Below, in pieces: positions 29,955 to 42,156 of a DNA stretch of 57,396 nucleotides; position 1 is the stretch's first letter; every line of letters starts with the position of its first letter. The translations under genes and the position numbers were made by a program. The stretch is from a bacterium (GTDB lineage Bacteria > Patescibacteriota > Saccharimonadia > CAILAD01 > BJGX01): positions 1 to 57,396 of the forward strand of contig JAKOQC010000181.1 in the NCBI GenBank assembly GCA_029778565.1, read 5' to 3'. Under the pieces are notes generated by a model that searched no databases, was not told the DNA's origin, and worked only from the letters and a program-made list of their open reading frames with translations.

Positions 29955-30269
29955 ATGAAAAAAGATACTCGAAAATATATTGATAGGCGGGATTATCTAA
30001 TTGCTGCAGTTGCCAAAAGACGTAAGGTACTAAAAGAAAAATCAGTACAATACAAAGGTGGTAAGTGCGAGCTATGTGGCTACGAGAAATGTATTGAAGC
30101 CTTGGATTTTCATCATAAAGATCCAAAAACAAAGAAATTTGGCATTAGCCATAAAGGATATACTCGCAGCTGGCAGGATGTGCAAGGCGAACTAGATAAG
30201 TGTGTTTTGGTTTGTGCAAATTGCCATAGAGAGATAGAAGCAGGAGTATCAAACATTAATCCGGGGTAG
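29955..30269 (+). CDS. HNH endonuclease-like protein running into the tRNA gene
   Basis: A 104-residue protein with an HNH core: Cys38/Cys41 (CELC), His53-His54 (DFHH), and Cys83...Cys87-Cys90-His91 (VCANCHRE), with a basic helical N-terminus. HNH proteins of this size cut or nick DNA and include homing-type and free-standing forms. The last codons and the stop are made from the first 10 bases of the tRNA-Asn gene, so coding sequence and tRNA overlap. Since that tRNA carries a group I intron, a past link as a homing endonuclease is possible but unproven. Confidence 0.75.
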   Translation: MKKDTRKYIDRRDYLIAAVAKRRKVLKEKSVQYKGGKCELCGYEKCIEALDFHHKDPKTKKFGISHKGYTRSWQDVQGELDKCVLVCANCHREIEAGVSNINPG

Positions 30270-30561
30270 CTCAGTGGTAGAGCAGTTGGCTGTAAATTGA
30301 TGCAGCGTTTAGTGGTAACACTAAGATGAAAATAGGGTGAATTGCGGGAAGCCTAAGTGAGAATATGGTAATCCGCAGCCAAGCCAAGAAGAGCAAAGGT
30401 TTCTTGGAAGGTTCAGAGACTAGAGGGTGAGACTCAACAATAATCTCTCAGATAGCGCCCTACATCCGTCATGGCGGATGATGATATAGTCCATTCCCAT
30501 TTGAAAATTTGGGGTAGATGTAACCAATTGGTCGCTGGTTCGAATCCAGTCCCCGGAGCCA
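30260..30561 (+). tRNA. tRNA-Asn(GTT), split by a group I intron in the anticodon
   Basis: Exons are 30260-30293 and 30521-30561. The 7-bp acceptor stem pairs 30260-30266 with 30551-30557, then G and an encoded CCA (30559-30561). The D-arm is 30269-30283, the anticodon stem GTTGG/CCAAT is 30285-30289 with 30524-30528, the variable loop has 5 bases, and the T-arm is 30534-30550 with loop TTCGAAT. Joined, the loop reads CTGTTAA with anticodon GTT. The unspliced loop reads CTGTAAA and would be mistaken for Tyr(GTA), but bacterial tRNA-Tyr has a long variable arm. The GCCA end also fits Asn. Confidence 0.93.
30294..30520 (+). ncRNA. Group I self-splicing intron in tRNA-Asn
   Basis: It has 227 bases and no ORF. 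The 5' exon ends in U and the intron ends in G. P1: exon GCTGT pairs with GCAGC (30302-30306), leaving the expected U-G at the splice site. P2 is TTAGTG-GTAA-CACTAA. P3 is TAGGGTG with CGCCCTA, P4 is TTGCGG with CCGCAG, P6 is CCAAGAA with TTCTTGG, P7 is GACTA (30419-30423) with TAGTC, and P8 is CATCCG with CGGATG. The stretch GTTCAGAGACTAGAG is the classic R element. A 33-base extension between P7 and P3 resembles P7.1/P7.2, which suggests an IA-like layout. It should splice out by itself with guanosine. Confidence 0.9.
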
Positions 30562-30576
30562 AAGAACTTATGCTTT

Positions 30577-30603
30577 AAAGATCTGAAATATGGTCTTTTT
30601 TTT
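30577..30603 (+). terminator. Terminator after tRNA-Asn
   Basis: AAAGATC pairs with GGTCTTT (one T-G pair), loop of 8 bases, then a run of eight T. Confidence 0.7.
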
Positions 30604-30605
30604 GA

Positions 30606-30611
30606 TATGAT
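30606..30611 (+). promoter_or_regulatory. Extended -10 TGATATGAT, leaderless type
   Basis: TATGAT preceded by TGA; ends 6 bases before ATG 30618. The T-tract of the terminator occupies the region where a -35 box would partly lie. Confidence 0.6.
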
Positions 30612-30617
30612 TAATTA

Positions 30618-31091
30618 ATGAAAAAGAATGTAATCATAATCATATCTGGTTTAGCATTACTTTTACTGGCTATAATTATTGTAAGCACACTCTATCTTTT
30701 TAGGCTACCGAGACAAACATTGCGGTACAAAGACCAGGTTTTCTCAGTTGAATTCTCTAATGATGCTACTACATTTACAGACCCAGCATCAGGACTTAAT
30801 TATTTAACAAGCAAAAAGTTGAATATGGGTATTGGAATTAATAATTCTACATCTCAAAAAGATTGTGGACAAAGTGGGTCAAAAACCTACCAACAAATCA
30901 ATGTTAGTGGAAATTTATACTCACTATGTGCAGGCACAAATACAGAAACCGGCAAGCCTGCATTTTGGACAGTTAATTTTGCCATAAATAGTAGGTGGTA
31001 CAGTGCAACACTGATCCCAAATAGTACTGATACTATCATTTCACAAAAGCAGGCTGCAGAAATATTTTCTAGTATTCAAATGTCAAACTAG
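30618..31091 (+). CDS. Small membrane-anchored protein, unknown
   Basis: A 157-residue protein with a strong N-terminal membrane helix (about 5-28) and an outer domain of about 125 residues. The two outer cysteines (QKDCGQ and SLCAGT) could form a disulfide. The domain is beta-rich and ends in a short helix (KQAAEIFSSIQ). I do not recognise a family. It is the first single-gene unit after the tRNA, with its own promoter and with module B starting at its stop codon. Confidence 0.6.
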   Translation: MKKNVIIIISGLALLLLAIIIVSTLYLFRLPRQTLRYKDQVFSVEFSNDATTFTDPASGLNYLTSKKLNMGIGINNSTSQKDCGQSGSKTYQQINVSGNLYSLCAGTNTETGKPAFWTVNFAINSRWYSATLIPNSTDTIISQKQAAEIFSSIQMSN

Positions 31092-31133
31092 TTCTAACTT
31101 CCATCACCACGCGGAGCCAAAGAACTTATGCTT

Positions 31134-31157
31134 AAAAGACCCATTGGGTCTTTTTTT
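31134..31157 (+). terminator. Terminator in module B
   Basis: AAAAGACCC pairs with GGGTCTTTT (9 bp, loop ATT) and runs into seven T. Confidence 0.8.
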
Positions 31158-31159
31158 GA

Positions 31160-31165
31160 TATGAT
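31160..31165 (+). promoter_or_regulatory. Extended -10 TGATATGAT before the Nudix gene
   Basis: Six bases before ATG 31172. Confidence 0.6.
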
Positions 31166-31171
31166 GTATTG

Positions 31172-31720
31172 ATGGATACAAAAATAGATATTTATGATAA
31201 AGACGAGAATCCTTTACATAAAACCGCAACCTATGATGAGGTGAGAAAAAATGGACTGTGGGCACGTGGTGTACATATTATTTTATACACACCGTCAAAA
31301 AAAGTTGTAATGCAAAAACGTAGTAAAAAGCTCGATTATCATCCTGGTGAAATAGAAGTGTCGGTAGGTGGTGGAGTAAAAGCTGGAGAAACAACAGAAC
31401 AAGCAATTATACGTGAGGTTAGAGAAGAAACCGGAATTAATCTTTCGGCAAAAGATATTAAATATATTGGTAAAAATAAGTTTAGTCGTAGGTATAAAAG
31501 AAATGGGCATAAGTATTATATGAAAGATTTTATTTATTCATATTCAGCACAAATACCTGAAAATATTGAGTTTAAGCCAGAAGATGATGAGGCTCAAGAA
31601 TTATTTTTGCTACCCCTAAATCAAGTAAAACGTTCTGTGCGAAAACATTATGTTTTACACTTCGGTAGATTAGCCTCTATGTATAGCTATTGGTTGTATT
31701 TACTTCGATCGATAGAATAG
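31172..31720 (+). CDS. Nudix hydrolase
   Basis: A 182-residue protein with a complete Nudix box: GGGVKAGETTEQAIIREV followed by REETGI, fitting Gx5Ex7REUxEExGU. The N-terminal MDTKIDIYDKDENPLHK and the overall plan resemble the isopentenyl-diphosphate-isomerase-like Nudix group (YfcD type), which hydrolyse nucleoside or other diphosphates. The start is ATG 31172, six bases after the -10; the in-frame TTG 31169 is not needed. A broken copy of its first 38 bases lies at 41065-41102. Confidence 0.85.
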   Translation: MDTKIDIYDKDENPLHKTATYDEVRKNGLWARGVHIILYTPSKKVVMQKRSKKLDYHPGEIEVSVGGGVKAGETTEQAIIREVREETGINLSAKDIKYIGKNKFSRRYKRNGHKYYMKDFIYSYSAQIPENIEFKPEDDEAQELFLLPLNQVKRSVRKHYVLHFGRLASMYSYWLYLLRSIE

Positions 31721-31762
31721 TCCTAACTTCCACTACCACCTGGAGCCATAGTACTTATGCTT

Positions 31763-31787
31763 AAAGAAGCCGCCAAGGCTTCTTTTT
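31763..31787 (+). terminator. Terminator in module C
   Basis: AAAGAAGCC pairs with GGCTTCTTT (9 bp, loop GCCAA), then T5. The same hairpin is in module F. Confidence 0.8.
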
Positions 31788-31789
31788 GA

Positions 31790-31795
31790 TATAGT
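31790..31795 (+). promoter_or_regulatory. Extended -10 TGATATAGT before the GNAT gene
   Basis: Six bases before ATG 31802. Confidence 0.55.
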
Positions 31796-31801
31796 ATTGT
31801 A

Positions 31802-32332
31802 ATGGAGCCCAAACCAATGCCGCCAGAAGATGAACCCAAAGTTGAAATAAAACTGTGTAGCGAGAATGATTTAGTGTTACTCAATAAAGCCATTCCCGAA
31901 CCAGGCTATCATGAAAGACGATTTGCATCGCAACAAGATGGTAAGGCTAGCTACTTGCTGGCTTGGCAAAATGGTGTGCCAGTTGGCCATCTATTAATAA
32001 AGTGGGAAGGCAGTGGGCCACAGGTAAATAAATATCTGCCCGATACGCCCGAACTAAATGCAATTGGGGTCTGGCCACCAAAAAATCGTTCCAAAGGAAT
32101 AGGCGGACAATTAATAGAAAAAGCTGAGGGAATGGCGAAAGAGAAAGGCTTCAAACAAGTAGCTCTCGCAGTTGAAATAGATAACTCTCGTGCAAAAGAA
32201 CTATATGAGAAGTTGGGGTATATGGATTGGGGTCATGGAGAATACATTGATGAATGGGTAGAAAAAGGCGATGACGGTGAAGAAACACAACACAAAGACC
32301 CCTGCTACTATTTGGTTAAGAATTTAGAATAA
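31802..32332 (+). CDS. GNAT-family N-acetyltransferase
   Basis: A 176-residue GNAT. The acetyl-CoA loop is RSKGIGGQLIEKAEG (fits R/QxxGxG/A), followed by QVALAVEIDNSRAKELYEKLGY, the standard motif B. An N-terminal proline-rich stretch of 12 residues is unusual. Substrates of single GNATs cannot be told from sequence; small-molecule or protein amines are possible. It has its own promoter and shares terminator D with the convergent peptidase gene. Confidence 0.85.
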   Translation: MEPKPMPPEDEPKVEIKLCSENDLVLLNKAIPEPGYHERRFASQQDGKASYLLAWQNGVPVGHLLIKWEGSGPQVNKYLPDTPELNAIGVWPPKNRSKGIGGQLIEKAEGMAKEKGFKQVALAVEIDNSRAKELYEKLGYMDWGHGEYIDEWVEKGDDGEETQHKDPCYYLVKNLE

Positions 32333-32337
32333 AACTA

Positions 32338-32403
32338 GTTCTAACTTCTGTTACTACACGGAACCAAAGTACTTATGCTTAAAGACCTGAAAAGGTCTTT
32401 TTT
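32338..32403 (+). repeat. Cassette module D, between convergent genes
   Basis: GTTCTAACTTC, then CGGAACCA (tRNA end with one change) at 32359-32366, AAGTACTTATGCTTAAA and the hairpin. The promoter part is absent because the next gene is inverted. Confidence 0.75.
32381..32403 (+). terminator. Terminator in module D
   Basis: AAAGACC pairs with GGTCTTT (7 bp, loop of 6) followed by T3; serves the GNAT gene and lies just past the stop of the minus-strand peptidase gene. Confidence 0.7.
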
Positions 32404-33028
32404 AGGTTTGAAACACCAACACCTCGCCATCCCTAACTGTTTTGTATTTGATACCATGTTCTTCACAATACTGTATTCCACGGTCTATGGCTTCTGTTTC
32501 TGGGTGGACAGATTTGTAATGTGGCATAAAAGCAAAATCAACCAAGCCTAGGCCTTCCCAGATAATTTCGTTCCAGCCCTCATATGGTGTAATTGTAGCA
32601 TCACCTACTACTTTATAAGGTTCGAGAGAAGGCGCCAGCAAACAACCAGCCGCGCTGTAGCCTGAATAGAGAAAATCTGCGTTATTTTTTGCTAGTTCAA
32701 TAAGAACCCTGTCTAGCCCACACAGTCTCATAGCCTGGCGCAGCACAAAAACATTGCCACCCATTATAAAAACAGCGCCATAACTTCTAACTTTTGCTTC
32801 TACCTCGTCATTTTTGCCAAAATAATCTTTTAAGTCTAGTACTTCGACATTAAACCCAATTTCTTCTAGCCGCATCTTCTTGTTTGCAATGGCATTTAAC
32901 GACTGGTCGTCATCAAAAGCCCGAAAGTCTAACGCATTCGGAATAACCCAAATATTATCAGTTGGCGCCATAGCTTTGAGCTGATCTTTTTTATTACCGA
33001 ATTTAAAAGATGACAAATAGAATTTCAT
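32402..33028 (-). CDS. Peptidase family S51 protein (dipeptidase E-like)
   Basis: About 208 residues in an alpha/beta fold. The likely nucleophile Ser is in YSGYSAAGCLL, preceded by FIMGGNVFVLRQAM, and the histidine region is FMPHYKSVHPETEAI. S51 enzymes split Asp-X dipeptides, but several relatives have other roles. A longer frame from ATG 33064 exists, but ATG 33028 is the start: TACAAT (33035-33040 on the minus strand) is six bases upstream and the homology begins at MKFYLSSF. It is the only inverted gene in the array. Confidence 0.8.
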   Translation of the reverse strand: MKFYLSSFKFGNKKDQLKAMAPTDNIWVIPNALDFRAFDDDQSLNAIANKKMRLEEIGFNVEVLDLKDYFGKNDEVEAKVRSYGAVFIMGGNVFVLRQAMRLCGLDRVLIELAKNNADFLYSGYSAAGCLLAPSLEPYKVVGDATITPYEGWNEIIWEGLGLVDFAFMPHYKSVHPETEAIDRGIQYCEEHGIKYKTVRDGEVLVFQT

Positions 33029-33034
33029 ACTATT

Positions 33035-33040
33035 ATTGTA
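33035..33040 (-). promoter_or_regulatory. -10 box TACAAT (minus strand), leaderless type
   Basis: Six bases before ATG 33028; decides that start over the ATG 12 codons upstream, which the promoter itself would exclude. Confidence 0.55.
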
Positions 33041-33075
33041 CTTGTAAACATACTTAATCAACAATGCCGCGACTT

Positions 33076-33098
33076 AAAAGACCCATCTGGGTCTTTTT
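33076..33098 (+). terminator. Terminator in module H
   Basis: AAAAGACCC pairs with GGGTCTTTT (9 bp, loop ATCT), T-tract of five. No plus-strand gene lies directly upstream. Confidence 0.7.
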
Positions 33099-33100
33099 GA

Positions 33101-33106
33101 TATACT
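33101..33106 (+). promoter_or_regulatory. Extended -10 TGATATACT before the methyltransferase gene
   Basis: Six bases before ATG 33113. Confidence 0.58.
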
Positions 33107-33112
33107 TGATGT

Positions 33113-33862
33113 ATGAAGCTTTCTGAATCGACCAAAATGAATCAACAATCTTATGATGCTCATGCCGAAGAGTGGCATGCAGCTAAAGATATTAATTATG
33201 GCCATCGTTTTTTAGAAAAGCCTGCCATGTATAGCCAACTACCACACAGCTTAGAGGGCAAAGAAGTACTGTGTATAGGTGTAGGGTCAGGTGAGGAACT
33301 AGAAGAGTTAGTAAAATTAACACCTAAAAAGATAGTTGCAATCGACATTTCGGCTAATTTACTTAAGCTTGCGAAGAAAGAATTTCCACACGTTGAGTTT
33401 CATCAAATGAACATGATGAAGTTAGCTTTTGCAGACAATAGTTTTGATATGGTGTATTCGAGCTTAGCATTTCACTATACTAACGATTGGGATAAGCTGC
33501 TTAAAGAGATGTATAGAGTATTGAGGATGAGAGGAATATTGTTATTCTCAACACATAACCCAGAATATTGGAAGAATAAGCCAGCAACCGGACAAAAACA
33601 CGTAAATGCTAGAGGTGTAGAAACCCTCGAACACACTGCCTCGTTGGGCAAGATTGAGATTGTTTATTACAACCTTCCAAACTTACAGGCAATTGACGAG
33701 GCGGTGACGCATGCCGGTTTTGTAATAAAGAATGCGTTTACGCCAAGTGTAGTGAATGATGGAGTTTACTCTTTAAATAAATCTGAGCTTGAGGTACTCG
33801 AAACTTTAAAAACAAAGAACAATGCCACTCCTTTGTTTTATGTTGTGAATGCAGAGAAGTGA
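33113..33862 (+). CDS. Class I SAM-dependent methyltransferase
   Basis: A 249-residue protein of the methyltransferase-11 (UbiE/Smt-like) type. Motif I is VLCIGVGSGEELEEL, then VAIDISANLLKLAKK, FDMVYSSLAFHY and LYRVLRMRGILLFSTHNP-like segments (MYRVLRMRGILLFSTHN here). Substrate unknown; small molecules are usual. Monocistronic, leaderless-type promoter, module E at its end. Confidence 0.83.
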   Translation: MKLSESTKMNQQSYDAHAEEWHAAKDINYGHRFLEKPAMYSQLPHSLEGKEVLCIGVGSGEELEELVKLTPKKIVAIDISANLLKLAKKEFPHVEFHQMNMMKLAFADNSFDMVYSSLAFHYTNDWDKLLKEMYRVLRMRGILLFSTHNPEYWKNKPATGQKHVNARGVETLEHTASLGKIEIVYYNLPNLQAIDEAVTHAGFVIKNAFTPSVVNDGVYSLNKSELEVLETLKTKNNATPLFYVVNAEK

Positions 33863-33908
33863 TTGGTTCTGGCTTCTATCACCACCCGGAGCCAAAGTAT
33901 TTATGCTT

Positions 33909-33932
33909 AAAAGACCCGAAAGGGTCTTTTTT
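33909..33932 (+). terminator. Terminator in module E
   Basis: AAAAGACCC pairs with GGGTCTTTT (9 bp, GAAA tetraloop) followed by T2 more. Confidence 0.8.
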
Positions 33933-33934
33933 GG

Positions 33935-33940
33935 TACAAT
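33935..33940 (+). promoter_or_regulatory. -10 box TACAAT before the ATP-grasp gene
   Basis: Eight bases before ATG 33949, slightly longer than the usual six or seven. Confidence 0.45.
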
Positions 33941-33948
33941 AATAACCA

Positions 33949-34770
33949 ATGAATATCTTATTAATTAGTGACCCGGAATTACGTAACGCTGTCACCTGGG
34001 AAGAGTGGCTAAAAAGTGAAGGCCATAGGGTAGCACACATACAAACCCTACCTACCAACTGGGCAAAAGGCAATATACCATCATTTGATTTAGTCATTCC
34101 ATTAATCACTATTAGGGATTATACCGATAGGACAACCAGAAGATATGACCTTGTTAAATTCTTAGAAAACGATAATTATAGGTTACTCAACTCAACACGA
34201 ACAATAGATTTGTCTTCAGACAAATCTTTAACTTATAAAGCATGGTCAAAGGCCGGTATATCTCAACCAAAAACTTTTAAACTATCTAGCTTATCAAAAT
34301 GGCCAATGAAAAATGAAAAAATGGTTTTTAAACCAATCTTTGGGCATAGTGGTGACCACATACTACTGGTCTCGTCACTAGATGAGGCGGCACGACACAG
34401 TACTGCACTGGGTCTAGATGCTATCCTGCAAGAGTATATTAAGTCGCCTAAGTGTATCAGAATGATTTGTTCAAAAAAAGTAGTGCTGAGTTGTTACGAA
34501 AAATACATCCCTGGCAGAGTTGTGGCAAATGTAGCCAAAGGTGCTTTAAGACATTCATTTTCTCCAGGTAATGAGCTGGTAGAACTGGCATTTAAAATGA
34601 TGAAAACAATTGATGCCAATTTAGCAGGTCTAGATATATTAATTAGTGGCAGCAACTATTATGCGTTAGAAGCAAACATACCCTTTGGATTTGATAAAAA
34701 AGACAACAAATTAAGAGGACATCTCATGAAAGTCATTAGTGGATATGGAGGTATGCGGTCTGCTGATTAA
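33949..34770 (+). CDS. ATP-grasp (RimK/YheC-like) ligase
   Basis: A 273-residue protein. The N-terminal third (ILLISDPELRNAV, FDLVIPLITIRDYTDR) is the preATP-grasp part. Then come SSDKSLTYKAWSKAGI, MVFKPIFGHSGDHILLV (ATP-binding Lys and glycine loop), LQEYIKSPKCIRMIC, and the metal/ATP end YYALEANIPFGFD. These enzymes join a carboxylate to an amine using ATP. The substrate is not evident. Single-gene unit with no module at its 3' end; a decayed stretch follows instead. Confidence 0.8.
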   Translation: MNILLISDPELRNAVTWEEWLKSEGHRVAHIQTLPTNWAKGNIPSFDLVIPLITIRDYTDRTTRRYDLVKFLENDNYRLLNSTRTIDLSSDKSLTYKAWSKAGISQPKTFKLSSLSKWPMKNEKMVFKPIFGHSGDHILLVSSLDEAARHSTALGLDAILQEYIKSPKCIRMICSKKVVLSCYEKYIPGRVVANVAKGALRHSFSPGNELVELAFKMMKTIDANLAGLDILISGSNYYALEANIPFGFDKKDNKLRGHLMKVISGYGGMRSAD

Positions 34771-34807
34771 GTATTTTAAGCCGGGTGTAAGAGAAGCTTT
34801 TCTTTAA

Positions 34808-34981
34808 TGGCGTATCATACCTGGCCAAATCATAGATTCGACATATCAAAGCCTACATGCGGTCAATCAATTCAAATACATGCTTTTGAAACATGGTTAT
34901 ATGTTTATTTACTTTATGCCTCCAAAAAATAAAGCAGATGATTTGTTTAATTCAAAATACAAGCAGTTTATAGTAAAATAA
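34808..34981 (+). pseudogene. Possible C-terminal gene remnant without a start
   Basis: A 57-codon open stretch between stops, with no start near its beginning, reads like real protein (IIDSTYQSLHAVNQFKYM then HGYMFIYFMPPKNKADD). It ends at TAA 34981. I do not recognise it. It may be the tail of a gene lost by deletion. The rest of the 34771-35005 spacer holds only the Shine-Dalgarno of the next gene. Confidence 0.35.
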
Positions 34982-35005
34982 ATAAATAAATAGGAGACAC
35001 AAATA

Positions 35006-35680
35006 GTGGAACATTTGAATCAAGTTCAGCCAGAATCTATGCCTAAAAAAGATAAAGCTGCTGAAAATTATGCAGCTGAAAGAGCTAAAAACTTCAAAAC
35101 AATTCTCGATACATTAACCGCTGCTCTTAGCAAGAACGAAGATGTTGATCGAAATGATCTACTTGCTGTAGATGGATATATAGATGCAGAAGGAATTACT
35201 CGTTATCGTCAAGAAGTTGGTCCAGTTAAATTTGATAATACTAAAGAAGGTGATTTACAAGCTAGCTATGAAGAAATAGATGACTGGGAAGACTTGTTAC
35301 CGAATGGCGTTGTTGACTATATCAAAACAGAAACTGCAAGATGGAAACGAACGGGTGAAGATTTAGAGCTACATGTACGTTATTTGGGAGTAGCATTCGC
35401 ACCCCCCAGATATACAGAAGGATATGGTGGTTGGCACACTGCAACTCAACCAGAAGAAGGCTGGTACGTACAAGTGGATACACCTGATGAAGTATATGAG
35501 AATGTATTTTCTGTTGATGTTGATGTTTATAAAGAAATGACCAAGGAAGACAAACTTGCTTATTTAAAGTATTTGCAAGAATGGGTATCTACTGGTAAGT
35601 ATAAAGACTATATGTATGAGGACAAAGCAAAAGAATATGATGATAAAGCCAGAGAGTATCAAGAAAGGGGTAATAACTAA
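35006..35680 (+). CDS. Unrecognised 224-residue soluble protein
   Basis: An acidic, highly charged protein with no signal or membrane helix. The N-terminal 55 residues are helical (KDKAAENYAAERAKNFKTIL), the middle is rich in aromatic residues (HVRYLGVAFAPPRYTEGYGG), and the C-terminus is a Lys/Glu helix. The start is GTG 35006 with AGGAGA (34992-34997) 8 bases upstream; it is one of few array genes with a clear Shine-Dalgarno. No family is recognised; similar proteins could exist in related genomes. Confidence 0.6.
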   Translation: MEHLNQVQPESMPKKDKAAENYAAERAKNFKTILDTLTAALSKNEDVDRNDLLAVDGYIDAEGITRYRQEVGPVKFDNTKEGDLQASYEEIDDWEDLLPNGVVDYIKTETARWKRTGEDLELHVRYLGVAFAPPRYTEGYGGWHTATQPEEGWYVQVDTPDEVYENVFSVDVDVYKEMTKEDKLAYLKYLQEWVSTGKYKDYMYEDKAKEYDDKAREYQERGNN

Positions 35681-35747
35681 CTAATACGAAAGAACATATG
35701 AGGCACCTCATTCTTATCTAGCACACGGAGCCAAAGTATTAATTTTT

Positions 35748-35772
35748 AAAGAAGCCGCCATGGCTTCTTTTT
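35748..35772 (+). terminator. Terminator in module F
   Basis: AAAGAAGCC pairs with GGCTTCTTT (9 bp, loop GCCAT), then T-tract. Confidence 0.8.
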
Positions 35773-35774
35773 GA

Positions 35775-35780
35775 TATGAT
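35775..35780 (+). promoter_or_regulatory. Extended -10 TGATATGAT before the permease gene
   Basis: Six bases before ATG 35787. Confidence 0.6.
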
Positions 35781-35786
35781 ATAGAT

Positions 35787-36908
35787 ATGAATGCAATTGC
35801 TCATGCGCTATCAATTGCTTTTGCAATGGGCTGGGAGATACTCTGGGCTTTAATTCTCGGTTTCTTTTTATCTGCAATAGTACAAGCGGTTGTTAGAAAA
35901 TCGAGTATTGTAAAGCTTATGCCAGACGACTCAGCAAAAACCTTAGCTATTGCTGCTGGGCTAGGTGCTGCCTCTTCTTCTTGCTCTTATGCAGCGGTGG
36001 CATTGGCCCGCTCGTTATTTCGCAAAGGGGCAAATTTTACCGCCGCCTGTGCATTTGAGATAGCTTCTACAAATTTAGTTATCGAGCTAGGAATTATTAT
36101 GGCTATTTTGCTGGGCTGGCAATTTACCTTAGCAGAATTTGTGGGCGGACCAATTATGATACTTATTCTCGCTGTGTTATTTCGGCTTACGTTACGTAAA
36201 GATATACTCAAAGCCGCCTTCGAGCAGGCTAACAAAGGAGTTGCCGGAAGAATGGAGGGTCATGCTGCTATGGATATGAGTGTTGAAGGTAACAAGAGTA
36301 TTTGGCAAAAAATGTTTTCTGCAAAAGGCTTTACCTCAATAAGTGAATATTTTGTTATGGATTGGGGAGCCGTCTGGAAAGATATTGTTGGAGGATTATT
36401 GATAGCTGGCGCTATTGCTGCTTGGATACCGCAAGAATGGTTTGCTAAGTTTTTCTTTACTGGGCATCCTATATTTAGCAAAATTTGGGGGCCATTAATT
36501 GGACCATTTATTTCAGTAATCAGTTTTGTATGTTCGATAGGTAATGTTCCTTTGGCGGCTGTGTTATGGAATAGCGGTATTAGTTTTGGTGGGGTTATTA
36601 GTTTTATTTTTGCCGATCTAATTGTTATTCCAATATTACTGATTTATCGTAAATACTACGGAACCAAAATGATGCTATATAAGTTTGTAACTTTTTATAT
36701 TGCTATGGTACTAGCTGGATATTCAGTTGAAATTATCTTTAGTATTTTCCATTTAATCCCTAGCACCCACAACGCAACTGTATTAGAAGCCAGCATAAGT
36801 TGGAACTATACAACGATTCTCAATATTATCTTTCTTATTCTTGCTGTGACATTGTTAATTCGTTTTATTCTCTCGGGCGGAGTTAAAATGTATAAGATGA
36901 TGAATTAG
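35787..36908 (+). CDS. Predicted permease, DUF318/ArsP-like
   Basis: A 373-residue protein with about eight to ten membrane helices. The family hallmarks are GLGAASSSCSYAAVALARSLF near residue 60 and its inverted-repeat counterpart SVISFVCSIGNVPLAAVLW near 250. The first matches the CSC/CSY region around which ArsP binds methylarsenite. Between the halves is a hydrophilic loop (about 150-190). It may export organoarsenicals or an unknown small solute. No arsR or arsM is nearby, so the substrate is open. Confidence 0.8.
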   Translation: MNAIAHALSIAFAMGWEILWALILGFFLSAIVQAVVRKSSIVKLMPDDSAKTLAIAAGLGAASSSCSYAAVALARSLFRKGANFTAACAFEIASTNLVIELGIIMAILLGWQFTLAEFVGGPIMILILAVLFRLTLRKDILKAAFEQANKGVAGRMEGHAAMDMSVEGNKSIWQKMFSAKGFTSISEYFVMDWGAVWKDIVGGLLIAGAIAAWIPQEWFAKFFFTGHPIFSKIWGPLIGPFISVISFVCSIGNVPLAAVLWNSGISFGGVISFIFADLIVIPILLIYRKYYGTKMMLYKFVTFYIAMVLAGYSVEIIFSIFHLIPSTHNATVLEASISWNYTTILNIIFLILAVTLLIRFILSGGVKMYKMMN

Positions 36909-36969
36909 GTGTATTTTTCTTGTTGCTGTTGAAACTTATGGACGAGAGAAGATATTAGTAAATTTTTGG

Positions 36970-36975
36970 TATGAT
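36970..36975 (+). promoter_or_regulatory. -10 box TATGAT, leaderless GTG start
   Basis: Six bases before GTG 36982; no Shine-Dalgarno. Confidence 0.55.
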
Positions 36976-36981
36976 GAGAGA

Positions 36982-37542
36982 GTGAAGAATAGCAATAAAA
37001 TACCAGGTCTAAAAAAATTTCTCATTGTTTTGGCTATCGTAGTTATTTATTTGCTAATATCTGTTTTGCAGTTTGGGTTGAAGGATGGATTTATTGTAAC
37101 GATAGTGAGTTGGTCATTTTTTGTATTTTGCACCCCTATTGCTGATGCAGGTTTTTTGCTTGATTTTCCAGTCCGATTAGTGACAGGAGTCCGCATGCTC
37201 AATACCGAAATTATCGTTTGGGCTATAGCCGCTACCGTTAATGTAATAACCTTATTAAGTAATCCGGCAATTTACCAAAAAACAGCCTTGTTGCAACTTT
37301 TTTATCAAATTATAACAAAACCATGGCCGCTATGGCTTATTATTCTACTATCAGCTGTTGGTACATTTGTGTCGATCTATTTAGGAGATGATGCTTTTGA
37401 TATTGTGGTATCAAATAATAAGTTGTCTATGTACAAAAGAGACAAAATACGTATTTATTTCTCAGCTGTAATCTTTATATTAACCGGAATATTGTATTTT
37501 GCATTATTATATCTTACCCATATAAATATAAAAGTAATCTAG
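36982..37542 (+). CDS. Unrecognised multi-pass membrane protein
   Basis: A 186-residue protein with four or five hydrophobic helices (about 14-32, 38-60, 75-92, 112-132, 155-178) and a short charged loop (YLGDDAFDIVVSNNKLSMYKRDKIR). The GTG start is chosen by the -10 box six bases upstream. No family recognised. Follows the permease after 73 bases and has its own promoter. Confidence 0.55.
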   Translation: MKNSNKIPGLKKFLIVLAIVVIYLLISVLQFGLKDGFIVTIVSWSFFVFCTPIADAGFLLDFPVRLVTGVRMLNTEIIVWAIAATVNVITLLSNPAIYQKTALLQLFYQIITKPWPLWLIILLSAVGTFVSIYLGDDAFDIVVSNNKLSMYKRDKIRIYFSAVIFILTGILYFALLYLTHINIKVI

Positions 37543-37623
37543 ATTCATCAATCCAAAAGATTTAGTTAAGTTTTTGTATTATATTTTTGCAAAAGAAGAG
37601 TCTGAGTTTGGTAGTATATTCTT

Positions 37624-38469
37624 ATGAATAAAAATATACATACTCATATACAAAGACCCTATTGGCATGTAGATCTAAAATGGATATTTGGTATAGGAAG
37701 CTACCTCATCCTTGTGATACTGGTGTTATGTATTGGGTTTTACCAGCTAACAACTCAAAAAGTAGCTGTAGCAATTATTAGTAATGGAGCTGCTGCTATT
37801 ATCAACCCAGAGGCGAGTGAAAATACAAATACCATCGTTGAAATAAAACAAAAAATGGATACAGAACATACTGATATATTTTATCCTTTTCCAGATCATT
37901 CAATAGTGATAACCAGAGAGGATGTAAATACACTTTCAGCTAAAGAGATAGAAAATAAAGTGTATATGCAATTGGCAGAAGCAATTTATAACAATAAGCT
38001 GACCACAGTTGATGCTTCTGGCCAATCTCAAAATAGTTCATTGCAAAAATTTGGTGTATTAGCAGTATTTACTAGTCAGTTTCATAACAATATAGGCAGT
38101 ATTTTATTGGTGTTAATATTCCCATTACTATTATTTTTAAGCCTAACCATTTACTTTAGTGCTGGATATGGACGACTAATCTCTCCTGCAATAGTGATAT
38201 TAATAGCTACTGGACCGCTATGTTTGGTAACACTGATTACCTCTGCCTTATTGCATCGCAGTTCTTCTCAAATCGGGAGTGTTGTTGATCAATCAGGCAG
38301 AGTAGATAATGCAATTTCTACTGTATTGCCCATAACAACCACTGAGTTAGTAAGAACATATGGACTAATTAGCCTTATAGCTATTATCCTCTTTGTTATT
38401 GCTACTATAGGCAAAGTGTTACAAATAATGAAAAACCGAAGCAGTAATCTTGCATTGCCAAAAAAATAA
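37624..38469 (+). CDS. Unrecognised membrane protein with outer domain
   Basis: A 281-residue protein. One helix at about 22-44 is followed by an outer region of about 95 residues (45-140) with many Asn, Thr and Glu. Three more helices lie at about 155-178, 188-212 and 246-266. A TAGTAT six bases before ATG 37624 could be the -10. No family recognised; topology is read from hydrophobicity only. Confidence 0.55.
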   Translation: MNKNIHTHIQRPYWHVDLKWIFGIGSYLILVILVLCIGFYQLTTQKVAVAIISNGAAAIINPEASENTNTIVEIKQKMDTEHTDIFYPFPDHSIVITREDVNTLSAKEIENKVYMQLAEAIYNNKLTTVDASGQSQNSSLQKFGVLAVFTSQFHNNIGSILLVLIFPLLLFLSLTIYFSAGYGRLISPAIVILIATGPLCLVTLITSALLHRSSSQIGSVVDQSGRVDNAISTVLPITTTELVRTYGLISLIAIILFVIATIGKVLQIMKNRSSNLALPKK

Positions 38470-38592
38470 CCAACCATTATCTTGTGAGTTGGCTAGCTAT
38501 TTTCTCCTAAACAATATCCATAATTTAGTATATATATAGTAAATTTATACAGAACAATATTTAATATAGAGGACCCATAAAGTCTTTTTTGT

Positions 38593-38598
38593 TATGAT
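38593..38598 (+). promoter_or_regulatory. Extended -10 TGTTATGAT, leaderless type
   Basis: Follows a T6 tract (38585-38590) and ends 7 bases before ATG 38606. The weak hairpin around GACCCATAAAGTC just upstream looks like a decayed cassette terminator. Confidence 0.5.
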
Positions 38599-38605
38599 AC
38601 CTATT

Positions 38606-38869
38606 ATGGAGAGTAATCCCAATAAACAAATTTCTGGAGGTGTAGTTCATAAGCTGCCTTTAGATTTACGAACAGCACTTATTGCTTCGCCAGATGCGCT
38701 AAAAGAATGGGAAGATATTACTCCGTTAGCGAGGAACGAATGGATCTGTTGGGTAATTTCGGTAAAGAAAGAGGAGACAAGAGCCCAACATATAAAAAGA
38801 GTACCAGAAGAATTATTAACTGGTAAGCGTCGTCCGTGTTGTTGGGCAGGGTGTCCACATCGAAGATAG
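38606..38869 (+). CDS. YdeI/OmpD-associated (OmdA) family protein with Cys-rich tail
   Basis: About 87 residues. The core LPLDLRTALIASPDALKEW followed by TPLARNEWICWVISVKKEETR and RAQHIKRVPEELLTGK is the OmdA (PF13376) helical domain. The end PCCWAGCPHRR adds three cysteines and a His and could bind a metal. The start is ATG 38606 by the -10 position; ATG 38594 overlaps the box. Role of the family is unknown. Confidence 0.78.
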   Translation: MESNPNKQISGGVVHKLPLDLRTALIASPDALKEWEDITPLARNEWICWVISVKKEETRAQHIKRVPEELLTGKRRPCCWAGCPHRR

Positions 38870-38942
38870 TGTATAGAATAAAACTGATCACAGATGCCCA
38901 TGTAAATATCGTGATACAATAAAAGCATAAGAGGTTAAAAAA

Positions 38943-39119
38943 ATGGCAAAAAATAGTAATACACACAACAACTCAATTATTGGAGGGGTGGTTTTAGTAG
39001 TACTAGGAATTATCTTCTTGTTACAAAGTTATCTTCATATAGATATCTTAGACAAATTATGGCCACTCATTCTGGTAGCGGTTGGTATTGTGATAATCTT
39101 CAATTCTACTCGGCGTTAA
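38943..39119 (+). CDS. 58-residue LiaI/DUF5668-like membrane protein
   Basis: Two helices (about 11-29 and 36-53) around a short loop with LHIDILDKLWPLILVAVG, the pattern of the DUF5668/LiaI N-terminal region. It has GAGG (38931-38934) about 8 bases before ATG and a TACAAT at 38915-38920, so its transcript does have a leader. Such proteins are found near envelope-stress genes; here it stands alone. Confidence 0.68.
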   Translation: MAKNSNTHNNSIIGGVVLVVLGIIFLLQSYLHIDILDKLWPLILVAVGIVIIFNSTRR

Positions 39120-39223
39120 TAGGTATCAATACCACCGAAATAAATAATAACCATTAATATGAAACATAATCTAAAAACAGCAGCCAATAAGTAACTAGAC
39201 CACTTTAACAACAACTAATCTGA

Positions 39224-39229
39224 TATGAT
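39224..39229 (+). promoter_or_regulatory. Extended -10 TGATATGAT before the CDF gene
   Basis: Six bases before ATG 39236; same sequence as in the cassette modules but without the hairpin. Confidence 0.58.
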
Positions 39230-39235
39230 ATTTCT

Positions 39236-40129
39236 ATGTCTCATAGTCACGACCACAGCAACCATAGCCTAGACAATCGTTTTAAGCTTGGCTTTGTATT
39301 AAACACAGGCTTTATGATTTTTGAGCTTATTGTAGGTATTGCTATAGGCAGCCTTGCTCTTATTTCAGATGCAGCTCACAATCTATCTGACTCACTTTCC
39401 CTAGTCATTGCTTGGCTTGGCAATAGAATTTCTAAAAAACCAGCAGATAGTAAACGCACATTCGGATATGGACGAGCTGGCATACTTACAGCCTTGGTAA
39501 ACAGCTCAATCCTTATAGGAATCGCTTTGTTTATCATCGCCGAGGCTTATCAACGATTTATGCACCCCGAACCCGTTGCTGGCGGAGTTATAGCAATCGT
39601 GGCTGGGGTTGGGATTATTGTGAATGGTGCAGTTGCATTATTGTTTCTAAAAGACCGCCACGACCTTAATGTTAAAGCGGCTTTTCTCAACATGGCTTTT
39701 GATGCTTTTGTCTCATTTGGGGCAGTTATTGCAGGTATTTTGATAGTGTTTACGAAACAATACTGGATAGACCCGTTGGTTGGTCTTATGATTGCACTTG
39801 CTTTAATATACGCAGCCGTTGGAATAGTAAAGGAAGCCACAAGAATACTACTAGAGGGTGTACCAAAAGGCTTGAAGATAGACGAAATACGCCAGTCAAT
39901 TGTGGATACCAGTGGTGTCTCTGGGGTAGATGATTTGCATGTCTGGGCACTATCCAGTAACGAGGTAGCATTAAGTTGTCATATCGTGCCCGAAAAGCAT
40001 ACTCTCAAAGAAATTGAGGAACTTAATAAACAACTAAAGAAAGAGTTAAAAGAAAAGTTTGGGATTAGTCACGCCACAATTGAGGCAGAGTTGGAAAATT
40101 GTCACGAGGACAAGGAAACTCACGATTGA
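39236..40129 (+). CDS. Cation diffusion facilitator, CzcD/ZitB-like
   Basis: A 297-residue metal/proton antiporter with six helices, a His-rich N-terminus (HSHDHSNH) and a cytoplasmic C-terminal domain. Helix 2 has DAAHNLSD (His48, Asp52), as in zinc exporters. In helix 5 the usual HxxxD is Asn152-xxx-Asp156 (LNMAFDAF). The metal site is therefore HD/ND, and selectivity may differ from zinc. It overlaps the VKOR gene by 4 bases, forming the clearest two-gene operon of the array. Confidence 0.88.
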   Translation: MSHSHDHSNHSLDNRFKLGFVLNTGFMIFELIVGIAIGSLALISDAAHNLSDSLSLVIAWLGNRISKKPADSKRTFGYGRAGILTALVNSSILIGIALFIIAEAYQRFMHPEPVAGGVIAIVAGVGIIVNGAVALLFLKDRHDLNVKAAFLNMAFDAFVSFGAVIAGILIVFTKQYWIDPLVGLMIALALIYAAVGIVKEATRILLEGVPKGLKIDEIRQSIVDTSGVSGVDDLHVWALSSNEVALSCHIVPEKHTLKEIEELNKQLKKELKEKFGISHATIEAELENCHEDKETHD

Positions 40130-40734
40130 AACAAGACAGTAAGCAACCAAAGCTAGTCAAAATCTTGCCTTACATTCTAATAGTCGCAGGCATTATTGGT
40201 TTAATTGCTTCGTTTGTCATCACAATTGAAAAACTCCATTTGTTACAGAACCCTGCTTACAATCCATCTTGTAGTATCAATCCCGTGGTAAGCTGCGGCC
40301 CAATAATGGCTTCAAAGCAAGCTAGTGCTTTTGGTTTCCCCAACCCCATACTTGGCCTTATAGGCTTTGCATTTGTGCTAAATGTGGGCGTAAGTATGCT
40401 TGCAGGCGGCAAGTTTAAGCGGTGGTATTGGCTATTATTTAACTTCGGAACCTTATTTGGCGTTGTTTTTGTACACTGGCTCATTTTTCAATCACTCTAT
40501 AGTATTAAGGCACTTTGTATCTACTGTATTGCGGTCTGGATTGTAACAATTCCAACTTTCTTATATACGACACTCTTTAACTTGCAAGCAGGAAATATCA
40601 AAGTTCCAGCAAAGTATGAAAAGGCGATATTATTTATTATTAGGCAGCACCTTAATATATTGGTTATTTGGTATTTTATAATTACGTTGATGGTACTATT
40701 TCAATTTTGGTATTATTGGAAGACAGTTATTTAG
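40126..40734 (+). CDS. Vitamin K epoxide reductase family protein
   Basis: A 202-residue membrane protein with four or five helices. Loop cysteines Cys49 and Cys57 (NPSCSINPVVSCGP) and the active-site CIYC (about 132-135) match bacterial VKOR, which reoxidises periplasmic disulfide catalysts and passes electrons to quinone. There is no fused thioredoxin domain. TTG 40126 is the start: AAGGAA lies 8 bases upstream and TTGA overlaps the previous stop; a TTG at 40099 is less likely. Disulfides are plausible in several secreted proteins of this window. Confidence 0.85.
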   Translation: MKQDSKQPKLVKILPYILIVAGIIGLIASFVITIEKLHLLQNPAYNPSCSINPVVSCGPIMASKQASAFGFPNPILGLIGFAFVLNVGVSMLAGGKFKRWYWLLFNFGTLFGVVFVHWLIFQSLYSIKALCIYCIAVWIVTIPTFLYTTLFNLQAGNIKVPAKYEKAILFIIRQHLNILVIWYFIITLMVLFQFWYYWKTVI

Positions 40735-40830
40735 CGAGAACTTTCTCACCATTAATTATTAGTTTCAGGGCATCCAGACTAAAGCCAAACTCTATTTTTC
40801 GGTTGCTGAATGCGTTCTGCAGCCCGAGCC

Positions 40831-40866
40831 AAGTAAAAAGACGAGAAACATCTCGTCTTTTTACTT
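40831..40866 (+). terminator. Strong intrinsic terminator after VKOR
   Basis: AAGTAAAAAGACGAG pairs perfectly with CTCGTCTTTTTACTT (15 bp, loop AAACAT). Works on either strand. Confidence 0.85.
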
Positions 40867-41026
40867 GCTTGTGAGATTTGAATTTGAGAAACAGATTACC
40901 GGCGTAGCCGGCTGGTTCGCAAGGAGCGAAAGGATCGCAGAAGCCGCAGGCTTTGAGAACCGAAGCGACGGAATAGCTAGCGAAGCGCAGCGTCATCCAG
41001 TCCCCGGAGCCAAAGTACTTATGCTT

Positions 41027-41050
41027 AAAAGACCCAGAAGGGTCTTTTTT
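41027..41050 (+). terminator. Terminator in module G
   Basis: AAAAGACCC pairs with GGGTCTTTT (9 bp, loop AGAA), then T2 more. Confidence 0.8.
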
Positions 41051-41052
41051 GA

Positions 41053-41058
41053 TATGAT
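41053..41058 (+). promoter_or_regulatory. Extended -10 TGATATGAT, six bases before a 4-codon frame
   Basis: The leaderless position is ATG 41065, whose frame stops after four codons. The phosphoesterase starts 21 or 30 bases further on. Confidence 0.55.
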
Positions 41059-41064
41059 GTAATA

Positions 41065-41102
41065 ATGGATACAAAATAGATATTTATGATAAAGATGAAA
41101 AA
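41065..41102 (+). pseudogene. Duplicated, frameshifted 5' end of the Nudix gene
   Basis: Bases 41065-41102 match the first 39 bases of the Nudix gene at 31172, with one A lost from an A-run and a few substitutions. The frame then reads M-D-T-K-stop. The upstream promoter and terminator are also near-identical between the two places. The similarity ends inside the phosphoesterase start region. Confidence 0.8.
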
Positions 41103-42156
41103 TAGCTCTAACAAACAATTGAATCAAAAGATAGTCTCAACTGAAATCTCACAAGAAGATATAAATATTGATAACAAACATTATGTGATTTTGTCGATAC
41201 TTATTGCTATCTTGGTGGCTACTTTGCTAGTTATGGTGGCTGTTGGTTTGCTATGGTGGCCATTTAATATAGTTAAAACTAGCAAAAGTACTGTTATTGC
41301 TCCTCCGGCAAAATTACAACCTTTAAAGATTGTGGCAGTGGGGGATATTGCATGCGATCCCACTAGCCCCAAAGCCAATGGCTTAGATCCTGTAGAGTGC
41401 CAAGATAAAAAAGTTAGAGAGCTGGTGAATAGTATAAATCCAGACAAGATACTCATTCTTGGTGATATTGCGTACGACAAGGGAACTACAGAGTCATTTA
41501 CTAACGGTTTTTATAAAACCTGGGGTGATATAAAAACTAAATTTTTGCCAGCTCCGGGAAATCACGAATATGGTACTAAGAATGCCGCTGGCTACTTTAA
41601 TTATTTTGGTTCTCAAGCAGGTGAGGGTTTGGCCGGGTATTATACTACCAAAATTGGTGATTGGTCTATCTATTCACTCAATTCTAATTGTCCAGAAACC
41701 AATGATTGTTCGGTAAATTCTACGCAAATAAACTGGTTAAAATCACAACTTCAGAATGATACTAATAAGTGTCAATTGGCGTTCTGGCACCATCCGCAGT
41801 TTAGTACCAGCAAACACAGTGTAGACCCAGCACAAACAAATCGTCTACCTAGTGCTTGGCAACTCCTACAGAACTCAAATGCAGAATTAGTGCTGAATGG
41901 TCATGAGCATAACTATGAAAAATTTGCACAACAATTGCTAGATGGAACAAAAAGTGACGATGGCATTAGAGAGTTTGTAGTAGGTACCGGGGGAAGATCG
42001 TTATATCAACAAGTACGACAAAATGCGAATAGCGAATATTTTTATTCTGGCTTTGGTGCCTTAGAACTCGAATTATACCCATCTTCTTATTCGTGGAAAT
42101 TTTATAATATCGATAACAAAATTTTAGATAGTGGTGTCGGCATCTGTAAAAGATGA
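41086..42156 (+). CDS. Membrane-anchored calcineurin-like metallophosphoesterase
   Basis: A 356-residue protein with a membrane helix at about 35-60 and an outer catalytic domain. All metal motifs are present: VGDIACD, LGDIAYDKG (GDxxY as in purple acid phosphatases), PGNHEYG, WHHPQFS and NGHEHNYE. It should hydrolyse phosphate esters outside the cell. The start is ATG 41086 or ATG 41095; both lie within the duplicated Nudix sequence, so the gene uses a borrowed promoter and 5' end. Confidence 0.85.
   Translation: MIKMKNSSNKQLNQKIVSTEISQEDINIDNKHYVILSILIAILVATLLVMVAVGLLWWPFNIVKTSKSTVIAPPAKLQPLKIVAVGDIACDPTSPKANGLDPVECQDKKVRELVNSINPDKILILGDIAYDKGTTESFTNGFYKTWGDIKTKFLPAPGNHEYGTKNAAGYFNYFGSQAGEGLAGYYTTKIGDWSIYSLNSNCPETNDCSVNSTQINWLKSQLQNDTNKCQLAFWHHPQFSTSKHSVDPAQTNRLPSAWQLLQNSNAELVLNGHEHNYEKFAQQLLDGTKSDDGIREFVVGTGGRSLYQQVRQNANSEYFYSGFGALELELYPSSYSWKFYNIDNKILDSGVGICKR

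Follow-up and report, generated by a model that had tools for sequence, protein, structure and literature searches.

The array behind tRNA-Asn

The window (57,396 nt, positions 1–57,396 of contig JAKOQC010000181.1; assembly GCA_029778565.1, Saccharimonadia, Patescibacteria) carries a tRNA-Asn(GUU) gene at 30260–30561, followed on its own strand by a row of modules with accessory genes between them. Modules A to G, recognised in a first-pass annotation, were located at all seven places: the core (C)GGAGCCA ends at 30561, 31119, 31748, 32366, 33894, 35733 and 41012, and each core is followed by the ACTTATGCTTAAA box and by a hairpin with a T run. The region is probably a gene-cassette array that site-specific recombination assembled at the tRNA gene's 3' end and that is run by a large serine recombinase (LSR), the local case of a system found across Patescibacteria. 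Coordinates are collected in Table 1.

The order core, trailer, hairpin was as first described; a left box common to sites B–E, WAGTTCTAACTTC..NCACCACN, directly 5' of the core (WAGTTCTAACTTC 18 nt before the core end), had been overlooked, and site F has no recognisable left half. On comparison of genomes this left box turned out to be the universal part of the site. Module A is the real end of tRNA-Asn, as had been stated, the gene being split by a group I intron. Module G retains the tRNA 3' arm, also as stated, in the position of the left half; palindromes stand in place of its T-loop, and the 5' remnant of a Nudix cassette follows. The supposed partial module H proved to be a terminator with a promoter, not a site. 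Interval E–F holds two genes and F–G several; therefore only the first three units are strictly single-gene (the peptidase E gene of the fourth unit lies antisense). No recombinase gene was found within the window, in agreement with the reported lack of an integrase; Cas1, the endonuclease that marks casposons along with terminal inverted repeats, gave no match among ten proteins scanned, no search aimed at Cas1 having been made.

Table 1: Features of the tRNA-Asn locus, window coordinates (P-type and B-type half-sites as read under Candidate recombinase).
Feature	Position	Strand	Remarks
tRNA-Asn(GUU), 5' exon	30260..30293	+	spliced exons = tRNA-Asn by ARAGORN; 75/75 identical to tRNA-Asn of G001
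Group I intron in tRNA-Asn anticodon	30294..30520	+	RF00028 at 30283–30513, 98.5 bits, E 2.7e-24; splice points from G001 comparison
tRNA-Asn, 3' exon (module A, anchoring target)	30521..30561	+	T-arm read as B-type left half-site, GTTCGA; core CGGAGCCA
Module A right half-site, AAGAACTTATGCTTTAA	30562..30578	+	register equal in sites and tRNA trailers
Cassette 1 gene, 157 aa	30618..31091	+	no Pfam match; stop codon overlaps site B
Site B	31089..31119	+	P-type left half and core
Cassette 2 gene, Nudix hydrolase	31172..31720	+	PF00293, E 4e-19
Site C	31718..31748	+	P-type left half and core TGGAGCCA
Cassette 3 gene, GNAT acetyltransferase	31802..32332	+	PF00583, E 2e-13
Site D	32336..32366	+	P-type left half and core CGGAACCA
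Cassette 4 gene, peptidase S51 / peptidase E	32402..33028	-	PF03575, E 5e-16; antisense
Cassette 4 gene, class I methyltransferase	33113..33862	+	PF08241, E 4e-24; "H" at 33073 is its terminator/promoter
Site E	33864..33894	+	P-type left half and core
Cassette 5 gene, RimK-like ATP-grasp	33949..34770	+	PF08443, E 3e-12
Cassette 5, second gene, 224 aa	35006..35680	+	no Pfam match
Site F	35703..35733	+	core CGGAGCCA retained; left half degenerate
ArsP-type permease, first gene of long F–G interval	35787..36908	+	PF03773, E 8e-75
Site G	40985..41012	+	tRNA 3' arm ATCCAGTCCCCGGAGCCA replaces P-type left half
Second Nudix cassette, 5' remnant	41013..41099	+	90% identical to start of cassette 2, from core rightwards
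Metallophosphoesterase, conserved right flank of array	41086..42156	+	common to G001

Site definition and distribution

The site, WAGTTCTAACNTC-NTCCACNA-(tRNA 3' end), measures about 31 nt; a right half that is specific to the lineage, ACTTATGCTTAAA, and a terminator follow it. The pattern CGGAGCCANAGNACTTATGCTT, with up to two mismatches, gave six matches in the 2.25-Mb genome, every one on the window contig; matches on the opposite strand: 0; with the reversed control: 0. The trailer is likewise limited to this contig within the genome, except for one displaced copy in a tRNA-Trp array on contig C474. The motif is therefore neither a product of chance nor a genome-wide 3' untranslated region (UTR), the latter being a possibility raised in the first-pass annotation.

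In relatives the same composite site was found in arrays adjoining tRNAs; consensus from 84 sites of the class: GTTCTAACNTC-NNYCAYNA-NNNNN-WGCCA. Exact pattern, all GTDB r220 species genomes (257 Gb): 69 stretches, nearly all in Patescibacteria (about 4 expected by chance, an estimate), with Saccharibacteria, Uhrbacteria, Yanofskybacteria, Nomurabacteria, WWE3, Kazan and Peregrinibacteria among the lineages. When two mismatches were allowed, 77 of 380 genomes of the phylum matched, with about 122 matches vs 7 for the reversed pattern; among 2.9 million viral contigs the exact site was not found. A 48-nt composite sequence model (R1) was usable but over-weighted the lineage-specific right box, and the 29-nt pattern was preferred. 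In Saccharimonadia the right half is TTATGC at offset 7, a register that sites and tRNA trailers share. Neither base-pair covariation nor a dyad was detected in the site (226 sites); folding into an attC-like hairpin was considered and rejected, the apparent pairing of positions 9 and 20 having failed (42% pairs in the same sites).

Variants were recorded as follows: some sites (L048, L050, L172, L189) carry AGCATAAGC, the reverse complement of GCTTATGCT, right of the core in place of the ACTTATGC box; the right side in L066 contains GTTAGAAC, the exact inverse of the left box; an "LSR-type arm" downstream of the L147 site was found to be a terminator-like hairpin, an LSR open reading frame (ORF) being absent there. 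The site was also met in a few metagenome-assembled genomes (MAGs) labelled Actinobacteria (SURF_21, five sites; nzgw108; SRR5214706) and WOR-1 (L179, L166, L130, L151); these copies represent either mis-binned contigs of Patescibacteria or true spread beyond the phylum.

Relation of the sites to tRNA genes

Nearest same-strand upstream tRNA (80 sites): Asn 39, Trp 22, Gln 15, Leu 2, Thr 1, Gly 1; the single Thr case was predicted with an intron and has an Asn-like tail. The last 6–11 nt of the site copy the local tRNA end, the match being almost always at least 6 nt. Terminal identity of site and local tRNA was 6.99 nt on average, vs 4.90 nt with loci shuffled (maximum of 2000 shuffles 5.96; 0 of 2000 reached the observed mean); with shuffling within isotypes it was 6.38 nt (6 of 2000 reached 6.99, P = 0.003). 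Five sites have a different discriminator base, as found in a search with 0 control matches: two behind a tRNA-Leu (tail GCCCCACCA), one behind tRNA-His (tail ACCCCA), one 9.4 kb behind tRNA-Gly (common tail GCTCCA) and one on a short contig without tRNA. tRNA-Gly is probably a further anchor. Integration at a tRNA 3' end, with the tRNA restored and its 3' end repeated, defines a tRNA-targeted genomic island, and this is the arrangement that the sequences of these loci display.

Gene turnover and junctions

The flanks of tRNA-Asn are conserved among relatives (left: F03-F04-F06; right: F16/F23-F09-F17-F10-F11), and none of the array genes of the window is common to any of the 17 tRNA-Asn loci compared; the gene order fixed in relatives that had been considered at first pass was thus not found. 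Two genomes (G006 and G009) carry no site at all; G001, of the same genus, has three sites with a different gene set. Intervals between sites (146): median length 1.05 kb; one ORF in 68, in the sense of the site in 55 of these; stop codon of the single sense-ORF cassettes at a median of 15 nt before the site. Homologues of cassette genes were found across genera and tRNAs: Nudix, tRNA-Trp of G019 vs tRNA-Asn of G034, 55% identity; kinase, tRNA-Asn of G030 vs the G254 array, 46% identity.

The following comparisons bear on the borders of the units. An alignment of sites B and G shows 90% identity in the 97 columns that run rightwards from CGGAGCCA into the beginning of the Nudix gene; left of the core they are unrelated (alignment score at shuffle level), the left side of G being the tRNA 3' arm. 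At B the Nudix cassette has thus been linked to a P-type site, at G to a tRNA end. A cassette of 823 nt occurs in G020 at two tRNA-Gln loci, first behind tRNA-Gln(TTG) and second, after another cassette, behind tRNA-Gln(CTG); the copies are identical at 672 of 828 positions from core to core, both flanks being at shuffle level. G164 and G047 also have a complete unit in common (605 nt, 69%). Such borders place the exchange at the core. Conserved flanks, differing contents, units shared from core to core and the B/G junction lead together to the view that site-specific recombination has moved the cassettes, with the tRNA-derived core as the place of exchange. As in integrons, the result is an array of apparently mobile gene cassettes bounded by a shared site, mobility being read from the comparison of loci.

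Candidate recombinase

The first-pass annotation had pointed to a tyrosine recombinase as the enzyme to be sought. Matches to PF00589 were obtained in 39 of 41 class genomes checked, including array genomes without an LSR, usually as a single Xer-like gene, and none lies near any array examined. An LSR is the best supported candidate. LSRs with resolvase, recombinase and zinc-ribbon domains all present were found in several arrays, the array of the window itself being without one; a profile of eleven LSRs matched A118 integrase structures (4kis, 6dnw) and other serine recombinases, while a single-sequence PDB search with one LSR gave no match. An LSR cassette stands between the tRNA and the first site in G164, G116 and G050, and at tRNA-Trp in the window's own genome (C474, L082).

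For 34 ORFs of LSRs or their remnants, the end falls within or close to an opposite-strand tRNA; since these ORFs run antisense into tRNAs, part of the LSR C terminus is antisense tRNA. Of nine LSR remnants, nearly all of them C-terminal pieces, seven stop with their 3' end at a site or a tRNA (0.39 expected, P = 2e-9; loci selected solely for the site). LSR genes in L086–L121, L196 and L202 typically end within an opposite-strand tRNA, many isotypes being represented. LSR islands L105 (tRNA-Glu of G096) and L110 (tRNA-Leu of G025) end in a tRNA repeat of 15–19 nt from the T-loop on and have no GTTCTAAC box; they belong to a different attachment type.

GTTC lies 20 nt from the CCA end in every tRNA measured (184/184) and 25 nt from it in 36/40 sites. 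The attP half-site of large serine integrases is 25 bp long, and their attB has the zinc-domain motif 5 bp closer to the centre than attP has (PMC3783163). As the two distances match this shift, the tRNA T-arm is read as a B-type half-site and the left box of the array as a P-type half-site. We infer that GTTC corresponds to the zinc-domain motif; on the 5-bp reading the crossover would lie near tRNA nt 71–73, inside the stretch that nearly always matches.

Host tRNA gene

The intron is inserted between anticodon bases 2 and 3; the tRNA-Asn of the sister species G001 is intronless. The split gene was missed by ARAGORN in the unspliced window. An HNH-like free-standing ORF (29955–30269) lies directly upstream, its end falling inside the 5' end of tRNA-Asn. 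In L202 (303–987) a tRNA-Leu(UAA) was predicted with a 609-nt intron holding an antisense HNH-like ORF; this is the sole tRNA-Leu array found. Displaced tRNA-Asn 3' arms, at 40890–41005 of the window and at 13250–13300 of L027, are preceded by nested palindromes at the point where the T-loop should go on. The MAG of the window (G000) is 2.25 Mb in size vs 0.8 Mb in the sister species, and a second tRNA-Asn contig (C346, L199) has tRNAs without CCA; G000 is probably a mixed bin.

Discussion

Proposed mechanism: a cassette would extend from one tRNA-derived core (...SSWGCCA) to the next and consist of right half-site, terminator, promoter, gene(s), left half GTTCTAACNTC-NTCCACNA and core. A tRNA-targeting LSR would recombine two partners, a circle whose site consists of a P-type left half, core and right half, and the tRNA, in which the T-arm GTTCRA supplies a B-type left half next to its own core and right half; strand exchange would take place within the core at about tRNA nt 71–76. 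The insertion would rebuild an intact tRNA, again a target, and would leave a P-type site at the far end of the cassette; the array would grow next to the tRNA as integrons grow next to attI. Insertion would regenerate the target, and the array could grow further, since in Saccharimonadia the right halves of sites and of tRNA trailers agree in register. Predicted junction of the Nudix cassette circle, distal site to its own proximal right half: ...CCACTACCACCTGGAGCCA joined to AAGAACTTATGCTTAAAAGACCCATTGGG. Control by a serine recombinase is likely, as judged from the sequence evidence given above; that the enzyme is an LSR and that circles are formed is what we infer from it, and cassettes without a recombinase may be moved in trans. 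The serial insertion of small circles suggested at first pass is supported by gene turnover and core junctions, its movement step being deduced; the system extends over the phylum and to tRNA-Trp, tRNA-Gln and other tRNAs.

Several points weigh against this mechanism. Movement of cassettes is deduced from comparison; circle, excision and recombination were unobserved. Eight array-bearing genomes gave no resolvase match, for which loss, incompleteness, supply in trans or another enzyme may account. At other tRNAs this site is missing from the end of many LSR islands: those at Glu, Leu, Met, Pro and others are mostly without a P-type site, or use T-loop repeats instead, so that not every LSR island uses it. 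LSRs near arrays fall in at least two divergent groups, though the left half is uniform phylum-wide, and the LSR genomes were picked partly for carrying arrays. The right half is not conserved outside Saccharimonadia.

The strongest alternative is accretion and decay, whereby complete LSR islands entered at the tRNA and later lost their recombinase, the arrays being stacked island remnants with no mobilisation in trans. The C-terminal LSR remnants at sites, the tRNA-proximal position of intact LSRs in several arrays and the length and several genes of some intervals are in keeping with it; the many compact units (single sense gene in 55 of 146 intervals, stop codon close to the site), the whole units common from core to core and the lack of an LSR remnant in the window cassettes are not, and it is given somewhat less than an even chance.

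Movement of the cassettes by host Xer or another tyrosine recombinase, as Xer moves pdif modules with dif-like 11-6-11 sites, would have the merit of an enzyme present in nearly all genomes checked, array genomes without an LSR included. It is considered improbable: no tyrosine recombinase adjoins any array examined, the site has neither dyad nor covariation, and the 5-bp offset and the LSR remnants favour serine enzymes. The canonical dif pattern was found in 11 of 61 genomes, no better than the control, and the class's own dif was not identified.

Ordinary integrons, with IntI and folded attC sites lying near tRNAs by chance, are suggested by the array layout and by the likeness of GTTCTAAC to the R'' box of attC, and are a very improbable explanation: no integrase gene was found near arrays and no IntI beside an attI (the PF00589 matches being usually one Xer-like gene per genome, none near the examined arrays); R''/R' inverted repeats were not found, there being no hairpin covariation, no conserved GTTRRRY partner downstream and no right-hand partner conserved phylum-wide; and in its 3' part the site is a copy of the tRNA. 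A non-mobile motif of 3' UTR, processing or terminator type common to the tRNA and its neighbours would agree with the terminator-like hairpins (after 92 of 175 sites vs 18 in shuffles) and with the box behind the real tRNA, and has scarcely any weight left: the motif is absent elsewhere in the genome, the left half has a fixed 25-nt spacing, and as an explanation of the arrays the reading is refuted by the gene turnover between conserved flanks and the unit boundaries at cores; an extra processing role of the motif, beside its array function, is possible.

The cassette array, probably run by an LSR, was compared with known systems. With integrons and CALIN (clusters of attC sites lacking integron-integrases) it shares tandem single-gene cassettes that each end in a common site, growth by one primary site, and occurrence with or without a recombinase; it differs in that no IntI-type enzyme lies near arrays, there is no folded attC, a tRNA gene serves as primary site and is copied in the tail of the site, the candidate enzyme is a serine recombinase, and each cassette seems to bring a promoter and a terminator of its own. 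The integron-like character noted at first pass thus holds for the cassette array with a common site and fails for IntI and folded attC: the system works like an integron and stands outside the integron family.

Composite islands of the staphylococcal cassette chromosome (SCC, SCCmec) employ Ccr large serine recombinases at the 3' end of a housekeeping gene and consist of tandem elements between repeated att sites, recombinase-less members included; they measure tens of kb and occupy a single protein gene, rlmH, in staphylococci. By this general description the likeness lies in large serine recombinases (candidate here), the gene 3' end as target, tandem units and recombinase-less members, whereas the units in Patescibacteria are gene-sized and lie at several tRNAs across the phylum.

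Serine phage integrases (A118, TP901-1, phiC31) have the catalytic, recombinase and zinc-ribbon domains and the 5-bp shift of the motif between attB and attP (PMC3783163) in common with the system described, in which, unlike theirs, non-phage accessory genes form arrays and, in Saccharimonadia, tRNA and cassette agree in the register of the right half, so that insertion could be repeated. tRNA islands are described as usually catalysed by tyrosine integrases, with one displaced fragment per island (Islander, PMC4383910). Such islands and tycheposons likewise target the tRNA 3' end, restore the tRNA and repeat its 3' end; the present arrays differ by serine candidates, many gene-sized units and a dedicated non-tRNA left half.

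Conclusion

No earlier description of integrons, cassettes or serine integrases in Patescibacteria was found in the literature searched, which left out most subscription papers and preprints. A wider proposal, on which the evidence is evenly balanced, is that Patescibacteria have an integron class of their own: gene-sized, recombinase-less cassettes would be moved in trans by tRNA-targeting LSRs through a P-type half-site that continues into a duplicate of the tRNA 3' end, every insertion restoring both tRNA and target, to give a phylum-wide gene-capture platform at tRNA-Asn, tRNA-Gln and tRNA-Trp. Predictions open to test are circles, recombination in vitro, and gain and loss of genes at strain level. 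The site offers a search tool for mobile genes of uncultured Patescibacteria and compact recombination sites coupled to tRNA ends. If the proposal is true, a directional serine recombinase could build arrays by means of interchangeable right half-sites of tRNA and cassette, and the platform would be a tRNA-anchored counterpart of the integron with another kind of recombinase and site. The genomes of Patescibacteria are very small and their capture of genes is poorly understood; such a platform would explain how these minimal cells acquire genes.

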